Notes under the pieces: generated by a model
Told to the model about the DNA's origin: nothing
The model's database searches: none
Seen by the model: the letters and a program-made list of their open reading frames with translations, nothing else
Program-made: the position numbers and the translations under genes
In this document: in pieces, positions 13,357 to 23,503 of the stretch
Layout of the letters: every line of letters begins with the position of its first letter
Numbering within the stretch: the stretch's first letter is position 1
Assembly (NCBI GenBank): GCA_016185205.1
Contig: JACPOA010000097.1
Span: forward strand, 1 to 48,989
Reading direction: 5' to 3'
From: Hyphomicrobiales bacterium
GTDB lineage: Bacteria > Pseudomonadota > Alphaproteobacteria > Rhizobiales > Xanthobacteraceae
DNA: 48,989 nucleotides

Positions 13357-14787
13357 TTAGGCCGCGTTGGCGGCGCGCGGCCGGCTGTTGTCCTCCGCCG
13401 CCATCTGGACGCGCTGCAGGGCCATCACCTCGCGCATCAGGCGGGCAAAGTCCTTGCGGCCGGTTTCCAGCGCGCCTTCCACCACCGAGCGTTCCAGCTT
13501 CTCGCGCCGCAACGACGCGTTGAGCTCCTCGATCTGCTGCTCGGCCGTCTGCTTGCCGGCCGCCAGCGCCGTCTCCAGCACGCCGATACGCTCGTTGAGC
13601 GCCGCGACGGCGTCCTCGGCGCGCGCCAGCGCCGCTTCCTTGGCGGTATAGGCGCGGGCGAGCGAGCCCGAGCGCTCCAGCAAGGTGGTGCGGGCCTGAT
13701 CGATTTCCTTAAGCTGGGATTCGCGGCTGATGCGCTCGGCTTCCAGATCGGCCACGCGCGCGTGCAAGGTGTCGCGCTCCATGGCGATGTCGCCGGTGCG
13801 CCGGTCGTAGTCGCGGATCTCCTCGGCGCGGGCGAGCAGATGCTCGCGCGCCTCGACCAGCAGTTTTTCGGTCGATGTAGCGCGTGCCTGCAGGGCGTCG
13901 AAGCGCATGCGCTGGCTGGTGAGCTCGTGGTCGTGACGCTCATTGGACTCGTCGAGCGCCGACACCAGCCGGGCGCGTTCGTTGTTGACCTCGGTGAAAT
14001 TGGCTTCGACGTGGCGCAGGCGGCCTTGCGCGGCATTCAGGCTGGCCTCGGTTTCGGCCAGCTTGCGTGACAGCCGGGCGGCGTCCGCGCTTGCCTTGTC
14101 GAGCAGGGACTGCTGCGCGCGCTTCTCGTCCTCGGCCATCAGCAGGCGCTGGCGTGCGCTGTTGAGTTCGGATTCGAGCGCGATGATGCGCTTGTTGGCG
14201 GCTTCGAGCCGCTCGTCGAAGCGGCGGTTCTCCTCGCGCAGCGCCTTGTTTTCGCCGGTCTCCTGCGTGAGGCGGGCTTCCAGGTCGATGATCTGGGCGC
14301 GGCGGGCGGCGATATCGATGGCGATCTCGGCCTTGGTGGCCTCGATCGTGCGCAGCATGTTCTGCGTGGTGGTGAGTTCCTGGCGCAGCGCCCGGCACTC
14401 GCTGTCGGAGGCGGCGGCTTTCTTCTCCAGCTCGCCGACCTCGTTGCGCAGCTTGCCGTAGGACGTGCGGGTGTTGTTGAGCACGGTCTGCAGGCTGATC
14501 TTCTCGGACTTCTCGGCTTCGTATGCGCGCAGCGTCTTGCTCACCGGATCGGCCAGCTTGGCGACCGCGGCCTTGATGGTGTCGAGCTCGCCGATCTTGG
14601 CGTTGGCGTCGAGCAGCAGATTGCGCAGCGTTTCGTTGTCGCCGCCGATCTGGGCGCCGAGCGCGGAGAACAATTCCTCGTCGATCTCGAGCGGATTGTC
14701 AGGCAGCGCCGCGTCGGTGGGAGTGGGTTCGGGCAGAGCGTCGACCAGTGACGGCTTGCGAGCGAAGAGGCCCCCGAATTTGCTCAT
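13357..14787 (-). CDS. Long coiled-coil protein, crescentin-like
   Basis: After a short N-terminal head (MSKFGGLFARKPSLVDALPE, then a proline-rich stretch), residues from about 45 to 460 are almost continuous heptad-repeat coiled coil rich in Glu, Arg, Ala and Leu, with no membrane segment. The tail is short and ends in RAANAA. Length (476) and layout resemble the intermediate-filament-like crescentin of Caulobacter and related proteins of Hyphomicrobiales. The resemblance is in architecture; I cannot test homology by eye because coiled coils look alike. A role in cell shape or polar organisation is possible. It is transcribed ahead of hemN but separated by 219 bases with a regulatory box, so it is not in one operon. 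Confidence 0.75.
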   Translation of the reverse strand: MSKFGGLFARKPSLVDALPEPTPTDAALPDNPLEIDEELFSALGAQIGGDNETLRNLLLDANAKIGELDTIKAAVAKLADPVSKTLRAYEAEKSEKISLQTVLNNTRTSYGKLRNEVGELEKKAAASDSECRALRQELTTTQNMLRTIEATKAEIAIDIAARRAQIIDLEARLTQETGENKALREENRRFDERLEAANKRIIALESELNSARQRLLMAEDEKRAQQSLLDKASADAARLSRKLAETEASLNAAQGRLRHVEANFTEVNNERARLVSALDESNERHDHELTSQRMRFDALQARATSTEKLLVEAREHLLARAEEIRDYDRRTGDIAMERDTLHARVADLEAERISRESQLKEIDQARTTLLERSGSLARAYTAKEAALARAEDAVAALNERIGVLETALAAGKQTAEQQIEELNASLRREKLERSVVEGALETGRKDFARLMREVMALQRVQMAAEDNSRPRAANAA

Positions 14788-17317: not shown

Positions 17318-17944
17318 TCAGATCCGCGCCAACACGACCAAATGCGTGGACAGGCAATAGCGCAGTTCGACCACTCGCCCATTTCGGACAACGGCTTTGC
17401 GATCGGCCAGATCGACTTCGACGTCGTGATATTCGAGAAACAGTCGGTCGAGCGGGTAGATGGACTTGTAGACGGCCTCCTTGGCGGCAAACAGCAAGCG
17501 TCCCCGGTATGGATCGTCGCCCAGTCTGCGCCGCTCTTGCGGCGTGGCGACCAGGTCCAACAGGTCCGGCGGCAGCATTTCGGCCGGCTCGACGTCTATT
17601 CCCACCGCCGCGACGTCGCGGCAGAGGGCGACGGCGGCAACGGCAACACGCTCGTCATGGGCGAAAGAACCGGTGACGCCCGCCGGCCAGAGCGGGGCTC
17701 CCGACGGGCTTCTCGGCACGGCGCAGGCGGCATATCCGAGCCGGGCCAGGAGCGCACGACCAACGATGCGCGCGGCGCCGCTCGCGCGCCGCACGCCGAT
17801 GAGGGGCGAAGCCATCGAATGGGCTTCCTCCGCGAGCAGGGCCAGTTCGTCGCCGGGCGAGATCAAGCGATGGCCGATCAAAATGCCCGGCGCAGACAGC
17901 GATTTGATCGCCCGCTCCAGCACTGGATCGACGGGTTCAGTCAT
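17318..17944 (-). CDS. 4'-phosphopantetheinyl transferase (EntD/Sfp superfamily)
   Basis: The enzyme moves the phosphopantetheine arm of CoA to a serine of carrier domains. Visible motifs are PLWPAGVTGSFAHDERVAVA, VGIDVEPAE (Mg-binding Asp and Glu) and LLFAAKEAVYKSIYP, the family's WxxKE(A/S)xxK signature. The length of 208 residues is normal for the EntD type. The gene begins 35 bases after the NRPS gene stop, on the same strand, so the two are almost certainly one transcript and this enzyme should activate Ser633 of the NRPS carrier domain. It is a complete gene with all catalytic residues visible. Confidence 0.92.
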   Translation of the reverse strand: MTEPVDPVLERAIKSLSAPGILIGHRLISPGDELALLAEEAHSMASPLIGVRRASGAARIVGRALLARLGYAACAVPRSPSGAPLWPAGVTGSFAHDERVAVAAVALCRDVAAVGIDVEPAEMLPPDLLDLVATPQERRRLGDDPYRGRLLFAAKEAVYKSIYPLDRLFLEYHDVEVDLADRKAVVRNGRVVELRYCLSTHLVVLARI

Positions 17945-17979
17945 TGTCCCGCGTCTCGACCGTTCCGTATCGTCGACGC

Positions 17980-20900
17980 CTATTCCGCCGCCACGCAGGC
18001 AACGAAGGATTCCAACGGCTGCCGCGCGGGAGCCCGCTCGTTCGCCGCGACCCGAGCGACCGATTGGTCATGTGGCGTGTTGCGGCGAAACAGCTTGGCG
18101 GGATTGCCGCGCCAGCAGCTGTGCTGGTCGAGAACTTCGCCCTTCATCAGGAAGGAATCCGCATCGAGCACGGCCCGATCGCCCATGATCACGCCGTAAT
18201 GCACGAACGCGGCGGCGCCGAGCGTGCAGCCCTCGGACAGGCGGATGTGATCGGACTTGAACACGCCTTCCTCGAGCGAGTGCGATTGCAGGACGCTGCC
18301 CTCATTGAGGTTGCTGTGATCGCCGATCTCCGTGAGCGTCCGGTCCGTGATGCAGCATCCGCCATCGTAGACCTTGCGGCCGATTTTCACCCCCACCAGA
18401 CGGGTGACCCAATTCTTGAATGGCGTGCCCTTGAACAGTTCGACGATGGGCGAATCGGAGAGTTTCCAATGGCGTTCATGCGCCCAGAAGTACGGATCGT
18501 AGATGGAAACCAGCTTCGGCTCGAGCCGCTTGAATCCGATGCTGGCTCTTTCGATGAACGCAAAGTACGGGATCGCTGCCAGGGAGATAAGCGCGCCGGC
18601 GACGAACAGCGAACCAACGCCGTGGTCCGGATAGTACAGCACGGCCAGATGCGAGGCGAGCAAGGCCATAAAGAAGAACATCCAGCGGGTCAGCAGCAAG
18701 AGCGCTGCCGTGAGGAGATTGTGAGCGTTCTTGCGGCGCAGGCGTTGCCGGCGCGCCTCGCCGTCGAACGCCGCGCTGAGGTTCTTGTCGCGGTCCACGC
18801 TGCGCGGGATCTCGAAACAGGGCGATCCCAGCAGCCCGACGTTCTCGCGCACCGGGCCGTCGATCGGGATCAACACCTTGGTGCCGAGCAGACAATTCGC
18901 GCCGGTGCGGCCGTCCGGCGGATAGTGGATGTCGTTGCCGAGATAATTGCACTCGCCGATCCGTGTCGCGGCGAGCCGGAACGACGAGCTCGACATTTGC
19001 AAGTTGATCATCGACAGCCCGTCCGAGACCATCGTTTTGCTGCCGATCTCGCACAGGAAAGGATTGTCGTGCTTCTGGTTGGTGCCGAAATTCGACCCGG
19101 TCTGCTCGACCTCGTTCAGCTTCCAGCCCACGAACCGCATGTAGTGCACGATGCCGGAGGTGTCGCCGAACAGAAGATTGTAGAACTGGGAATTGCTGGT
19201 CAGCGATACGACGCGTTGCAGCCAGTAATGGAACCCATAGAGCACGTAGGTCTTGCCGGGCACGAGCAAGCGCTGACAGAGCCGCGGCACGAGGTAGATG
19301 CCGGCCAGTCCCAGCGCCAGCAGCCCGAAGAACGAGCCGGCGGAGGCCAGCAGCATCAGCGAGACGAACGCCATCGTCGAGCCGGCCACGGGCAGGGCGG
19401 TTTCACCCGCGAACGGAGCGAAATACGGGTACCAGAAGTCCAACAGCATGATCGGGAGCGGGATGAGGATCGCCAGCATGCCGGCGAGCTGGAAGCCCGA
19501 ATAGAGGCCGCGCCGCAGCGAGGTGCAGCGCTTGCTCTCGATCGGGCAATAATCGGCCTTGGTCTCGATCGCGGGGGAGCCGTGGTAATGCTTGCCGTCC
19601 GGCACGCGTTGACCGCTCTGCAACGACGAGGCGTGTCCGAGCTGGGAGCGGTTGCCCATCGCCGTGTCGATGTCCAGCACGCTCGCTTCGCCGACGAACG
19701 CATGGCTGCCGATGGCGATCGGTCCGGTATGAATGAAATTGCCTTGCGCCCGGTAGCCCAGCAGGATCGAGTCCTTGCGCAGAACCGTGTCGTCGCCGAC
19801 GGAAAACAGGTCGGTGCACACCGGCACGAAACGCGCGTTGATGACTGTGCCGCGTCCGATCTTGGCGCCGAGCAGACGCAGATACAGGTTGTGGATCGGG
19901 CTGCCGCGGAAGGCCGCCACGGGCGCGCTTTGCACCAGCGTCTTGATCATCCAGAAGCGGTAGTAGCGAAGGCTCCAGATCGGGAATGACTCGGGCTTCC
20001 ACCGGCCGATCAGCAGCCATTTCGCGGCGATGGGAAGGGCGGTCAGCCCGGCAAAGGCGGCGACGGCGAACGCCGTGCTGCGAAGATAGAGCGCGAGCGG
20101 ATCGTCGATCGCCGCATAAGTCCAGGTTAAGCCGGTGGCGCTGATCCAGAGAACCAGCAAGCCGTATCCGGCATAGAACAGGAGCTGGAGGGCGCCGCAG
20201 CCGTAGTAGGAAAAGTCGGATGGAACGTGGAACGGCTCCTGTTTGCCGGCGATGAAGCTTTCATCGGCCGCGTGCTCCAGATGTTCGGCGAGCTTGGCGA
20301 CGGTCGGGTACTGGTAGATATCGCGCATCGAAACGTTCGACAGGGCCGGATTCTTTCGAATCCCGGCGCAGAAGCGCGCCATCAGCAGCGAGTGCGCGCC
20401 CAGATCGTTGAAGAAATGATCCTCGACCGATACGCGGTCGACCTTCAGCGCCTCGGCGAGCGCCTGCGCCAGGATGTGCTCCTTCTCGGTATTCGCGGCG
20501 ACCGGCTTGTTTCCGGTGAGGAATTGCGGCCGTTTCGGCTTCGGCAGCTTCTTGTGATCCGCCTTGTTGCTGATCAACATCGGGATGAAAGGAAGCTGTT
20601 CGAGGAAGGCGGGAACCATGCTGGCCGGCAGCCGCTTTCGCAGCGCGCGCGTGATCTCGCTGCGCGGCAGATCGCCGGCGCCTTGCTTGAGGGAGTAATA
20701 AGCCACGAGTTCGACCATCCCGGGCTCGGGTTCGTAGGTGGTGACGGCCGCCTGCGCGATCTGGGGCAATTCCAACAGCACGGATTCGATTTCAACGAGC
20801 TCGATCCGGTGGCCGCGGATCTTGACCTGCGTGTCGATGCGGCCGAGGTATTCGATCTCGTCGTCCAGGTTGATGCGGCCGAGGTCGCCGGTCCGATAGA

Positions 20901-22287
20901 TGCGTTGCGACGGGTTGTTCGGGATGTCCAGAAAATCGGCAATGAACTTCTCGCGCGTCAGATCGTCCCGGTTCACATAGCCGGCGGCGAGCCCGATCCC
21001 CGCGATCCCGATTTCCCCCAGCTCGCCGCGCGCGACGGCGCGATCGGCGACCGGGTCGAGAATGACGATCGAATACGTCGGCAATGGCCCGCCGATCGTG
21101 ACCGGCTTGTTCGGCGTGAGCTCGCTCAACGTCGCGGTGACAGTGGCCTCGGTAGGACCGTAGGAATTCAAGATGGTCCGCCCCGGACGATGCCAGCGCG
21201 CCACCAGATTTTGCGGGCAAGCCTCGCCGCCGACGAGCAGAATTCTGAGCTGGGGCAACTCTTGCTCGATGGTCGCCAGCAAAGTGGGGCAGCAGCATAG
21301 GCACGTGACTCTGCGATCGCGCAGAAAGTCGGCCAGTTCGTCTCCGATCAGGCTGGCGCCCGGCTCGCCGGGAACGAGAGTCGCGCCGGCGATCAACGGC
21401 ACCCAAATCTCCTCGACCGAGAAGTCGAAGGCGATCGACATGCCCTGGTGGACACGATCTCCAGGAACGAAGCCGTACAGTTCGGCGGCAACCCGGACAA
21501 AATTGCAGATGGCGGGATGCTCGACCGCGACCCCTTTCGGGTTACCGGTCGTTCCCGACGTATAGATGATGTAGCAGACCCGATCGGCGGGGGGCGCTAC
21601 TTCGCCGTCGGCGAGGCGCGCAGGCGATTTTGCGTCAATATCCCGCTTCGCGACATCGAGAAAAATTTTCCGCACATCGAAGGCGCTGAGCCTGTCGGCA
21701 AAATCGGACATGGAGACGATGGCCGTCAAGTCCGCGTCCGCGACGATGAAACGAATGCGTTCCGTGGGGAATCCGGGGTCGAGCGGCACATAGGCGGCGT
21801 TGACCTTCATCACCGCCAACAACGCGACATAGGTTTCGACGGTTTTATCGAACAGCAGCCCGACGCGATCGCCGGCTCTGATCCCCCGGTCGATCAGATG
21901 CCGCGCGACCCGATTGGCGCGCTCGTCAAGTTCCCGATAGGTGAGGACGGTATCTTCGGCATCGACCGCGGCGTTCCGTCCGAAACGCTCGCAGGAATTT
22001 TCAAATAGATGATTGAGCCGCTCGCCTTCCTTCCAGCGAACGGCGTTGTCTTTGTCGTCGCAGGATAGCACTTGTCGTTGAGCGCGCGCCCGTTCGACGT
22101 ACTCGGGCGACATCGGCAGATCGTCGGAGCTACGGAAATACACAGGGCGGCGAGGCTGCATTCCTCGCTCGTTGACAGAATGTCGGGAGCTTAGCTCGCG
22201 AATTTCGACTCTATTGTCCATTGCACCGGTCTTGTCGTTGATGACTCGGCGCACTGGCTGGTCGTGCAACAGTGCCGCGGAACACAT
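17980..22287 (-). CDS. Pls/PosA-type membrane NRPS (poly-amino-acid synthetase-like)
   Basis: A 1435-residue single-module synthetase. The adenylation domain (about 90-590) has A3 YTSGTTGNPKG (242-252), A5 NSYGPTEAT, A7 YRTGDLGR, A8 GRIDTQVKIRGHR and A10 with Lys575. The carrier domain (600-675) has LGAHSLL, with Ser633 as the arm site. From about 690 on come alternating pairs of membrane helices and three left-handed beta-helix (hexapeptide) blocks, near IGRGTVINARF, GANCLLGTKVLIPI and IGDHSNLNEGSVL. There is no condensation or thioesterase domain. This is the layout of Streptomyces epsilon-poly-L-lysine synthetase (Pls). My hand-read specificity code, D-F-E-C-L-G-S-V-T-K, has an acidic third position, as in codes for basic amino acids, so a lysine/diaminobutyrate-like substrate is inferred. 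The start is uncertain (ATG 22287 or 22221). Confidence 0.9.
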   Translation of the reverse strand: MCSAALLHDQPVRRVINDKTGAMDNRVEIRELSSRHSVNERGMQPRRPVYFRSSDDLPMSPEYVERARAQRQVLSCDDKDNAVRWKEGERLNHLFENSCERFGRNAAVDAEDTVLTYRELDERANRVARHLIDRGIRAGDRVGLLFDKTVETYVALLAVMKVNAAYVPLDPGFPTERIRFIVADADLTAIVSMSDFADRLSAFDVRKIFLDVAKRDIDAKSPARLADGEVAPPADRVCYIIYTSGTTGNPKGVAVEHPAICNFVRVAAELYGFVPGDRVHQGMSIAFDFSVEEIWVPLIAGATLVPGEPGASLIGDELADFLRDRRVTCLCCCPTLLATIEQELPQLRILLVGGEACPQNLVARWHRPGRTILNSYGPTEATVTATLSELTPNKPVTIGGPLPTYSIVILDPVADRAVARGELGEIGIAGIGLAAGYVNRDDLTREKFIADFLDIPNNPSQRIYRTGDLGRINLDDEIEYLGRIDTQVKIRGHRIELVEIESVLLELPQIAQAAVTTYEPEPGMVELVAYYSLKQGAGDLPRSEITRALRKRLPASMVPAFLEQLPFIPMLISNKADHKKLPKPKRPQFLTGNKPVAANTEKEHILAQALAEALKVDRVSVEDHFFNDLGAHSLLMARFCAGIRKNPALSNVSMRDIYQYPTVAKLAEHLEHAADESFIAGKQEPFHVPSDFSYYGCGALQLLFYAGYGLLVLWISATGLTWTYAAIDDPLALYLRSTAFAVAAFAGLTALPIAAKWLLIGRWKPESFPIWSLRYYRFWMIKTLVQSAPVAAFRGSPIHNLYLRLLGAKIGRGTVINARFVPVCTDLFSVGDDTVLRKDSILLGYRAQGNFIHTGPIAIGSHAFVGEASVLDIDTAMGNRSQLGHASSLQSGQRVPDGKHYHGSPAIETKADYCPIESKRCTSLRRGLYSGFQLAGMLAILIPLPIMLLDFWYPYFAPFAGETALPVAGSTMAFVSLMLLASAGSFFGLLALGLAGIYLVPRLCQRLLVPGKTYVLYGFHYWLQRVVSLTSNSQFYNLLFGDTSGIVHYMRFVGWKLNEVEQTGSNFGTNQKHDNPFLCEIGSKTMVSDGLSMINLQMSSSSFRLAATRIGECNYLGNDIHYPPDGRTGANCLLGTKVLIPIDGPVRENVGLLGSPCFEIPRSVDRDKNLSAAFDGEARRQRLRRKNAHNLLTAALLLLTRWMFFFMALLASHLAVLYYPDHGVGSLFVAGALISLAAIPYFAFIERASIGFKRLEPKLVSIYDPYFWAHERHWKLSDSPIVELFKGTPFKNWVTRLVGVKIGRKVYDGGCCITDRTLTEIGDHSNLNEGSVLQSHSLEEGVFKSDHIRLSEGCTLGAAAFVHYGVIMGDRAVLDADSFLMKGEVLDQHSCWRGNPAKLFRRNTPHDQSVARVAANERAPARQPLESFVACVAAE

Positions 22288-22730
22288 CGACCGCCGAAAC
22301 CCTCACCGCTGCGTACCCCAGCGCCCGCGGCGAGTGATCGCGCGCCGAGCGGATGACTGCTGACTTTAAAAGCGTGCCCCCTGTTGAATTCTACGCAGCG
22401 CGCGTACCTCTTCCCACGTCAGAGTGGATGGCCGAAGATGAACGAAAGCTGAATAAAAGCAGGGGGTAAGGAGGCCAGGCGGGTGGGCTACGATATTCTT
22501 GACCGCTCCCGGCACATCGCTGCATGTCGGCGATTTGGTCGTTATTGGAATAATAGCAGACAAGGACGAGCGTCGGCCTTGACCAACGAGGCCGTCAATG
22601 ACCCAAAGACATTGGCTGGACACGATTCAATCGCGGATTAGAGTCCCGCCGCCTTTTGATAGGGAACTTCCGCAAAACTTTGGCGTTGCCAATAGCCTCC
22701 TTAATTCAATGGCCGCCGAGGAATAGTCCG
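22288..22730. other. Intergenic region between NRPS and copper-type pair
   Basis: This stretch of about 440 bases is more AT-rich than its surroundings and holds only weak short frames on either strand. It should contain the divergent promoters of the NRPS operon and the Cys-rich gene. A short TTGGC-GTT-GCCAA palindrome lies at 22680-22692, 40 bases before the start at 22731. Nothing else recognised. Confidence 0.5.
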
Positions 22731-23063
22731 ATGCATCATTATGATCAAACGACAAGCACGTGCATCGAGGCATGCCTACGCTGCTACCAAGCCTGTTTCG
22801 GCATGGCGATGACCCATTGTCTTGAGACGGGCGGGAAGCATGTCGAGCCAAAGCACTTTCGCTTAATGACCGCCTGTGCGGAGATTTGCCGGACTTCGGC
22901 TCATCTCATGTTGATGAAGTCGGAGCATGCTAAGCACCTTTGCAAGGAATGCGTTGAGATTTGTGATCAATGCGCGACTGACTGCGACAAGCTCGGTGAC
23001 ATGAAGGAATGTGTCGAAGCTTGCCGCCATTGCGCCGGGGCCTGCCGCAAGATGGCGGCCTGA
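22731..23063 (+). CDS. Four-helix-bundle cysteine-rich (copper storage-like, DUF326) protein
   Basis: The 110-residue protein has cysteines in helical spacing: CIEACLRCYQACFGMAMTHC, then CAEICRTS, CKECVEICDQCATDC and CVEACRHCAGACRKM. This is the DUF326/Csp pattern, in which a four-helix bundle lined with Cys binds many Cu(I) ions. There is no signal peptide, so it resembles cytosolic Csp3 types. The start at 22731 has GAGGAA seven bases upstream; the longer ORF upstream is not needed. The next gene, 44 bases downstream, is a Met-rich DUF305 protein, so a copper-handling pair is likely. Confidence 0.88.
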   Translation: MHHYDQTTSTCIEACLRCYQACFGMAMTHCLETGGKHVEPKHFRLMTACAEICRTSAHLMLMKSEHAKHLCKECVEICDQCATDCDKLGDMKECVEACRHCAGACRKMAA

Positions 23064-23107
23064 CGCGCTTCGATTTCGCCCATTCACATCACACCCCGGA
23101 GATGAAT

Positions 23108-23503
23108 ATGAAACGCCTTGTTCTAGCATCCGTTGCATCTGCGTTCGTTATCGGAATCGCGGTCGCTCAGCAGTCCGCCCCCATGCCCGGCATGGACATG
23201 AAGCGGGGCATGGATATGAAAATGATGGCCCCTGACCCGAGCGATTCTGCATCCACTAAGGGCTACAAGGCCGCAATGATGAAAATGATGGAGGGGATGC
23301 CGATGATGAAATTCACCGGCGACGCCGACCTCGATTTCATGAGTCGCATGCGGGCCCACCATCAGGGTGCCATCGACATGGCCAAAGTTGTTCTCGGCAA
23401 CGGCAAAGATCCCGAGGTCAAAAAACTGGCGCAGAACATCGTCACGGCGCAGGAAAAAGAAATTGTAACGATCAATGCCTGGCTGAAGGCGAAAGGAAAA
23501 TAG
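23108..23503 (+). CDS. DUF305 family exported Met/His-rich protein
   Basis: I take the ATG at 23108 (GGAG six bases upstream), which gives a signal peptide, MKRLVLASVASAFVIGIAVA, cleaved near AQQ. The mature protein has a Met-rich segment (MPGMDMKRGMDMKMMAPD) and the DUF305 core FMSRMRAHHQGAIDMAKVVL, with the diagnostic HHQGA. DUF305 proteins often occur with copper-resistance genes, and the Met/His content fits periplasmic copper binding. It is the second gene of a pair with the Cys-rich cytosolic protein. The product ends in NAWLKAKGK, normal for the short class. Confidence 0.88.
   Translation: MKRLVLASVASAFVIGIAVAQQSAPMPGMDMKRGMDMKMMAPDPSDSASTKGYKAAMMKMMEGMPMMKFTGDADLDFMSRMRAHHQGAIDMAKVVLGNGKDPEVKKLAQNIVTAQEKEIVTINAWLKAKGK

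Follow-up and report, generated by a model that had tools for sequence, protein, structure and literature searches.

The synthetase and phosphopantetheinyl transferase genes

The window, the whole stretch of 48,989 nucleotides that was analysed (contig JACPOA010000097.1 of a Hyphomicrobiales bacterium), carries on its reverse strand a single-module synthetase of the Pls/PosA family (positions 17980..22287, 1435 amino acids), assigned from the open reading frame list, Pfam, TIGR02353 and an AlphaFold2 model. Thirty-five bases (17945-17979) separate it from a downstream 4'-phosphopantetheinyl transferase (PPTase) of the PptT/EntD type (17318..17944, reverse strand, 208 amino acids).

The synthetase comprises an A domain (residues 95-571), a T domain (residues 606-670, with Ser633) and a membrane polymerisation region (residues 697-1397). 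Pfam places AMP-binding at residues 95-437 with 264.9 bits, AMP-binding_C at residues 499-571 and PP-binding at residues 606-670. No condensation or thioesterase family was found in the synthetase at E 0.001. A followed by T without a condensation or thioesterase domain is the layout of the Pls/PosA family, and it bears out the original prediction, which had read A and T domains without C or TE domains. The annotated start of the reading frame may lie too far upstream, since most of 79 loci align only from approximately residue 60-90.

In the C-terminal region (18097..20199, reverse strand), three left-handed β-helix blocks alternate with the same number of helix pairs. It matches TIGR02353, annotated as 'Pls/PosA family non-ribosomal peptide synthetase' (NRPS_term_dom), at residues 697-1397 with 748.8 bits (NCBIfam cut-off 423.1), and the locus is the only match over this cut-off in its own 4.38 Mb draft genome. 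The hydropathy profile has three pairs of maxima, near residues 697-760, 928-1004 and 1191-1246. An AlphaFold2 model of residues 689-1406, calculated from an alignment of 50 sequences (the window and 49 of 62 candidate relatives), reached a pLDDT of 92.6 and a pTM of 0.91. Its long helices pair up at model residues 3-71, 235-317 and 488-560, and short strands form a block after each pair. In a Foldseek search the closest PDB folds among the matches listed were hexapeptide acyltransferases (E-values of 4e-5 and weaker), and the TM-score by query was at most 0.18 among the 50 matches listed, so that only parts of the model are covered. A PDB sequence search with the whole C-terminal region gave weak hexapeptide matches only and no full-length relative; the top match was 3ixc (2.3e-7), in the third block. 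Hexapep_2 was the only hexapeptide family matched by Pfam, below its cut-off (19.5 vs 27). Hydropathy, the model and the partial fold matches thus agree on six membrane helices in three pairs and three left-handed β-helices, the arrangement of the family, and the predicted alternation of membrane helices with three hexapeptide β-helix blocks holds. The PosA model described in PMC10522769 has the same C-terminal layout.

The PPTase was assigned from the Pfam families 4PPT_N and ACPS and from PDB matches, its nearest solved relatives being 7ed1, 7ed2 and PptT entries. GIDVEP and KEAVYK are present in its sequence. Its position 35 bases downstream of the synthetase was predicted correctly, as judged by the reading frame coordinates and Pfam. 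It is the sole PF17837 match in its own genome, in a search that covered enzymes of the PF17837 type and whose control was positive in 3 of 14 known genomes. Domains, closest solved relatives and the single genomic match suggest that it is probably a dedicated priming enzyme for the synthetase. Among the 29 synthetases of the window's clade (see below), 25 have a PPTase within 9 kb. For three of the other four (L114, L127 and L039) the contig ends approximately 320 bases or less downstream, and for L035 no PPTase was found within 9 kb.

Two further features were noted in the window. A crescentin rod-domain protein is encoded at 13357-14787 on the reverse strand (PF19220, 280.2 bits). Upstream of the synthetase and on the other strand (22656-23503, forward) lie two genes, one for a CopM-family metallochaperone and one for a protein that resembles Csp-type copper storage proteins (below cut-off).

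Family survey and A-domain code

TIGR02353 exceeded its cut-off in 22 of 150 relatives and in 31 of 391 genomes of the same taxonomic family, 69 of 397 of the order and 10 of 385 of the class; these samples overlap. The resulting 157 loci were condensed to 148 distinct synthetases, and an A domain is present in 146. L109, L111 and L118 were dropped as duplicates of L029, L032 and L036, since their contigs are of equal length and, for L109 and L111, the scores are equal too; eight further duplicate pairs were merged. L163 had no synthetase of 1000 amino acids; L115 and L165 lack an A domain and stand outside the tree. From the order, fifteen of the 69 matching genomes were left out (G157, G204, G210, G226, G237, G261, G283, G285, G296, G351, G358, G387, G400, G427 and G473).

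The specificity code of the window's A domain reads D-F-E-C-L-G-S-V-T-K (residues 288, 289, 292, 331, 351, 353, 375, 383, 384 and 575), identical to the code that had been read by hand. Its first nine residues (D288, F289, E292, C331, L351, G353, S375, V383 and T384) are encoded within 21136..21426 on the reverse strand, with K575 farther along. The acidic third position pointed out in the original prediction is Glu292. An acidic residue at this position is a trait of the Pls/PosA family and occurs in every one of the 146 rows whose A domain could be read.

In a FastTree phylogeny of the 146 rows, the 29 rows of the DFE group with Gly at code position 6 form one branch with a local support of 100, referred to here as the window clade. 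Together with nine rows that carry Ser at this position (DFE..S rows) they make up a 38-row branch (support 99) inside a DFE/DYE group of 107 rows (support 100). The window clade is thus nested among enzymes with Ser at position 6. The eight lysine-type DAES rows and the DMEH-type rows are separate from the DFE group. Codes of the window clade follow the pattern DFE[AC][LM]G[ST]VT[KN]. The sister of the window, L029, is 90% identical over 1309 columns and reads DFEALGSVTK; the remaining members read DFEALG[ST]VTK, DFEALGSVTN in one case and DFECMGTVTK in four, including Rhodoplanes. Within the window's taxonomic family, 18 of the 31 genomes with a TIGR02353 gene carry the window-clade code. 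The other 13 have DLED codes (five), DAES codes (three), DFEALSAVTK (one) or no readable code (four).

We compared the 29 window-clade rows with the 77 DFE..S rows column by column, skipping sparsely filled columns. Between columns 91 and 580 only columns 333, 353 and 375 have no residue in common. From the DFE..S rows to the window clade, Val333 changes to Cys or Ser, Ser353 to Gly, and Ala or Val375 to Ser or Thr. Code positions 6 and 7 correspond to columns 353 and 375, whereas column 333 lies two residues past position 4; all three are encoded within 21136..21426. Against a background of 142 equally conserved columns, the probability that two of three switched columns fall on code columns is 0.008. 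The comparison is circular for column 353, which defines the two groups; the 29 rows nevertheless make up a branch of the tree, and the switch in column 375 is complete without resting on the group definition. A Dab-type signature (Ser at position 6, Ala or Val at position 7) is absent from the window, which has Gly353 and Ser375, while positions 1-5 and 8-10 are those of the common code DFECLSVVTK. A check of the class as a whole, where 10 of 385 genomes have the family, added six loci; among the five codes read (all but that of L200), no second change from Ser to Gly was seen inside the DFE group. One of the rows, L202 (G843), is a distant member on a long branch with the code DFEHSGTCSK, which combines Phe at position 2 with otherwise PosA-like letters.

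In the T domain and the membrane region no column is completely switched between the 29 and the 77 rows. Residues 952 and 953 (19429-19434, reverse strand), in the second membrane helix pair, come nearest: the window clade has Trp or Tyr at 952, frequently followed by an acidic residue (953), whereas the Dab-linked rows mostly have Leu, Val or Phe. This difference is possibly linked to the monomer or the chain path. Between residues 601 and 1430, 46 positions are kept at at least 85% in each of six code groups.

Dab transaminase in the gene context

As far as the contigs reach, a Dab-type transaminase gene lies within 9 kb of 64 of the 77 DFE..S synthetases and of none of the 29 in the window clade. 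Sixty-two of the 64 score at least 250 bits, 60 are on the strand of the synthetase, and all seven that were scanned exceed the TIGR00709 cut-off (NCBIfam). An aspartokinase is found within 9 kb in 31 of 59 rows with the code DFECLSVVTK. The tie is strong but not strict. For thirteen DFE..S rows no transaminase lies within 9 kb, and in seven of these the contig extends at least 8 kb to either side, so that Ser at position 6 does not require the gene nearby. In L034, L162, L036, L117 and L176, all of the DFE..S type, transaminase, synthetase and PPTase occur together, which suggests that this is the ancestral arrangement.

Because several window-clade contigs are short upstream too, whole genomes were searched for TIGR00709. 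The 29 genomes comprised 25 of the window clade (completeness 72 to 100%), G511 (a DFE..S genome) and three with a synthetase too broken for a code. No match over the cut-off was found in 24 of the 25 window-clade genomes, single-contig ones among them, and in G000 (96% complete) there was no match at 1e-60. The exception, G395, has the switched code and three matches over the cut-off on other contigs. G511 (DFEALSAVTK) likewise gave no match over the cut-off genome-wide. Of the controls, the DFE..S genomes G126 and G146 were over the cut-off, G107 gave a partial match at a contig end (341.6 bits) and G125, with a DYEC code, a sub-cut-off match only (253.7 bits). Neither the neighbourhood of the 29 clade synthetases nor, at 1e-60, the genome G000 thus yielded a Dab transaminase.

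Proposed product and identity of the monomer

The original prediction had likened the locus to ε-poly-L-lysine synthetase. Family and layout support this: Pls of Streptomyces albulus has the domain layout and C-terminal region of the window's enzyme (PMC10522769, PMC4668381). The closest relatives on the tree and by gene context, however, are the Dab-transaminase-linked rows and not the lysine-type ones. These Dab-linked members (DFECLSVVTK and kin, from actinobacteria and proteobacteria) belong to the DFE group of the window and share eight of ten code positions with it; they differ in Ser at position 6, Ala or Val at position 7 and the nearby transaminase.

Starting from the computed architecture, clade, gene context and residue switch, we propose the following reading, to which we assign a probability of roughly one half. 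The two-gene unit would make a cationic isopeptide homopolymer or oligomer, a product that fits the family. The A domain would activate a single diamino acid, and the T domain, primed by the adjoining PPTase, would carry it. The membrane C-terminal region would then link the monomers via the side-chain amine, as in Pls and PosA. The branch would descend from Dab-linked enzymes, would have lost the Dab transaminase, and its pocket would have changed from Ser to Gly at position 6 and from Ala or Val to Ser or Thr at position 7. As a result the synthetase would now most probably use a diamino acid of primary metabolism, ornithine being the first candidate and lysine the next, with Dab, Dap and arginine as residual ones. 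Substrate, polymerisation and linkage, as well as secretion and biological role of the product, are what we infer here.

The change of monomer from Dab to a primary diamino acid, with ornithine in first place, is put forward tentatively and from sequence comparisons, its odds being somewhat below even. In polymyxin synthetases, Ser occupies position 301 in 18 of 18 Dab rows of Table 2 of PMC3708778; in the same rows position 322 is Ala in twelve and Ser in six. Position 7 alone can thus not tell Dab from ornithine, and only position 6 separates them in this comparison. An A domain predicted for ornithine (the assignment is itself a prediction) reads DVGEIGSIDK, with Gly at 301 (PMC3992020). 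PosA, the δ-poly-L-ornithine synthetase of Acinetobacter baumannii, was tested with ornithine, and its Thr at position 7 hydrogen-bonds the δ-amine of the substrate (PMC10522769). The DAES rows, assigned to lysine by the rule of the same paper, also have Gly at position 6 and Thr at position 7. These comparisons suggest that the pocket has moved from a Dab-like to an ornithine- or lysine-like state.

PosA resembles the window's enzyme in its A-T architecture with a Pls/PosA-type membrane region, and both have Glu at code position 3, Gly at position 6 and a hydroxyl residue at position 7. Their codes (DMEHNGTVSK and DFECLGSVTK) agree only at positions 1, 3, 6, 8 and 10, though, and the PosA-like DMEH-type rows lie outside the DFE group, so that neither code nor clade is of the ornithine type. 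PosA was also reported as a single-gene operon (PMC10522769), whereas the window's synthetase is followed by the PPTase gene. In the scheme of that paper, position 2 is Phe in Dap and Dab enzymes, Ala in lysine enzymes and Met in ornithine enzymes. Phe is bulkier than the Met of PosA and favours a short side chain, which counts against ornithine. Ornithine is thus a compromise between this preference and the ornithine- or lysine-like pocket, with lysine second.

That the enzyme has remained a γ-poly-Dab synthetase, supplied with Dab by an unrecognised enzyme or from outside, is rather unlikely in our view. Phe at position 2 matches the Dab and Dap enzymes of PMC10522769, the clade is nested in a Dab-linked group, eight code positions are identical to DFECLSVVTK and some DFE..S rows likewise have no nearby transaminase. 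The genome-wide result, on the other hand, leaves a single clade genome with a Dab transaminase over the cut-off, and Ser353 and Ala or Val375 are replaced in 29 of 29 rows. An ε-poly-lysine synthetase, which the shared family and the Gly and Thr of the eight DAES rows would suggest, is improbable: those rows form another clade with Ala at position 2, the residue of lysine enzymes in PMC10522769, and Phe at this position should shorten the pocket. Since the Dab gene is absent and the pocket changed in the branch, it would not be safe to assume either lysine or Dab.

We give little credence to Dap, arginine or an unusual diamino acid as the monomer. The guanidine of arginine is a poor nucleophile for isopeptide chain growth, and as regards Dap, SbnA (TIGR03945) exceeded its cut-off in 0 of 29 genomes and SbnB (TIGR03944) was not found in G000 at 1e-40. 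Phe at position 2 would suit Dap, and a Bdellovibrionales A domain whose code (DSECYGGVTK) matches that of the window at 7 of 10 positions modestly activated arginine (PMC10522769). It is very improbable that the enzyme does not polymerise at all and instead passes a single loaded diamino acid on to a different acceptor such as a lipid, a sugar or a small molecule. Such a transfer would be in line with the partial likeness of the polymerisation region to hexapeptide acyltransferases and with the ability of Pls to esterify the chain end onto added alcohols (PMC9606270). The 46 positions conserved across six code groups argue against it, as does the formation of polymers by those members that PMC10522769 quotes as tested.

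Returning to the proposed change of monomer, it would be a natural substrate switch in which a Dab-making operon lost its Dab gene and had its pocket re-cut at three positions. The product would be either a polymer not reported so far or δ-poly-ornithine, the latter made along a second and independent route by an enzyme whose F-type pocket runs counter to the size rule in print; we hold this to be nearly an even chance. As the switch occurred once on the tree, gene loss and pocket change count as one event without repeats. If true, it would be a clean case of a synthetase changing its monomer by very few residues, and position 2 alone would not set the monomer. To our knowledge, the natural amino-acid homopolymers described are few, with the food preservative polylysine among them; the window branch adds a putative source of cationic polymers. 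The Pls/PosA family itself is already known. The branch, which bears the sign of a substrate switch, is uncharacterised in the literature searched, and no tested enzyme from it was found in print in the open PMC literature.

In 21 of the 29 window-clade loci the next gene after the synthetase encodes a GNAT acetyltransferase (for example L116:10635-11207), and the PPTase is present as well in 19 of the 21. Neither the window nor L029 showed the acetyltransferase, and a search of the window's own genome, run without a positive control, gave no match. The homologue at the Dab-linked locus L048 has spermine/spermidine acetyltransferases as its best solved matches (9dsb and 2fl4, approximately 6e-15). 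Acetylation may, as a speculation, protect the producer or cap the product. Beyond PPTase and GNAT, gene clusters present in at least 10 clade loci were on the opposite strand and were discarded as shadow frames.

A split system was observed at L115:4562-11648 (G100) and L165 (G243), where the TIGR02353 region stands without an A domain. In L115 it forms one protein with four T domains in tandem and is accompanied by a separate A-T protein and an adjoining gene of the SbnB (Dap) type. Both loci hold SbnA-like and PPTase genes.
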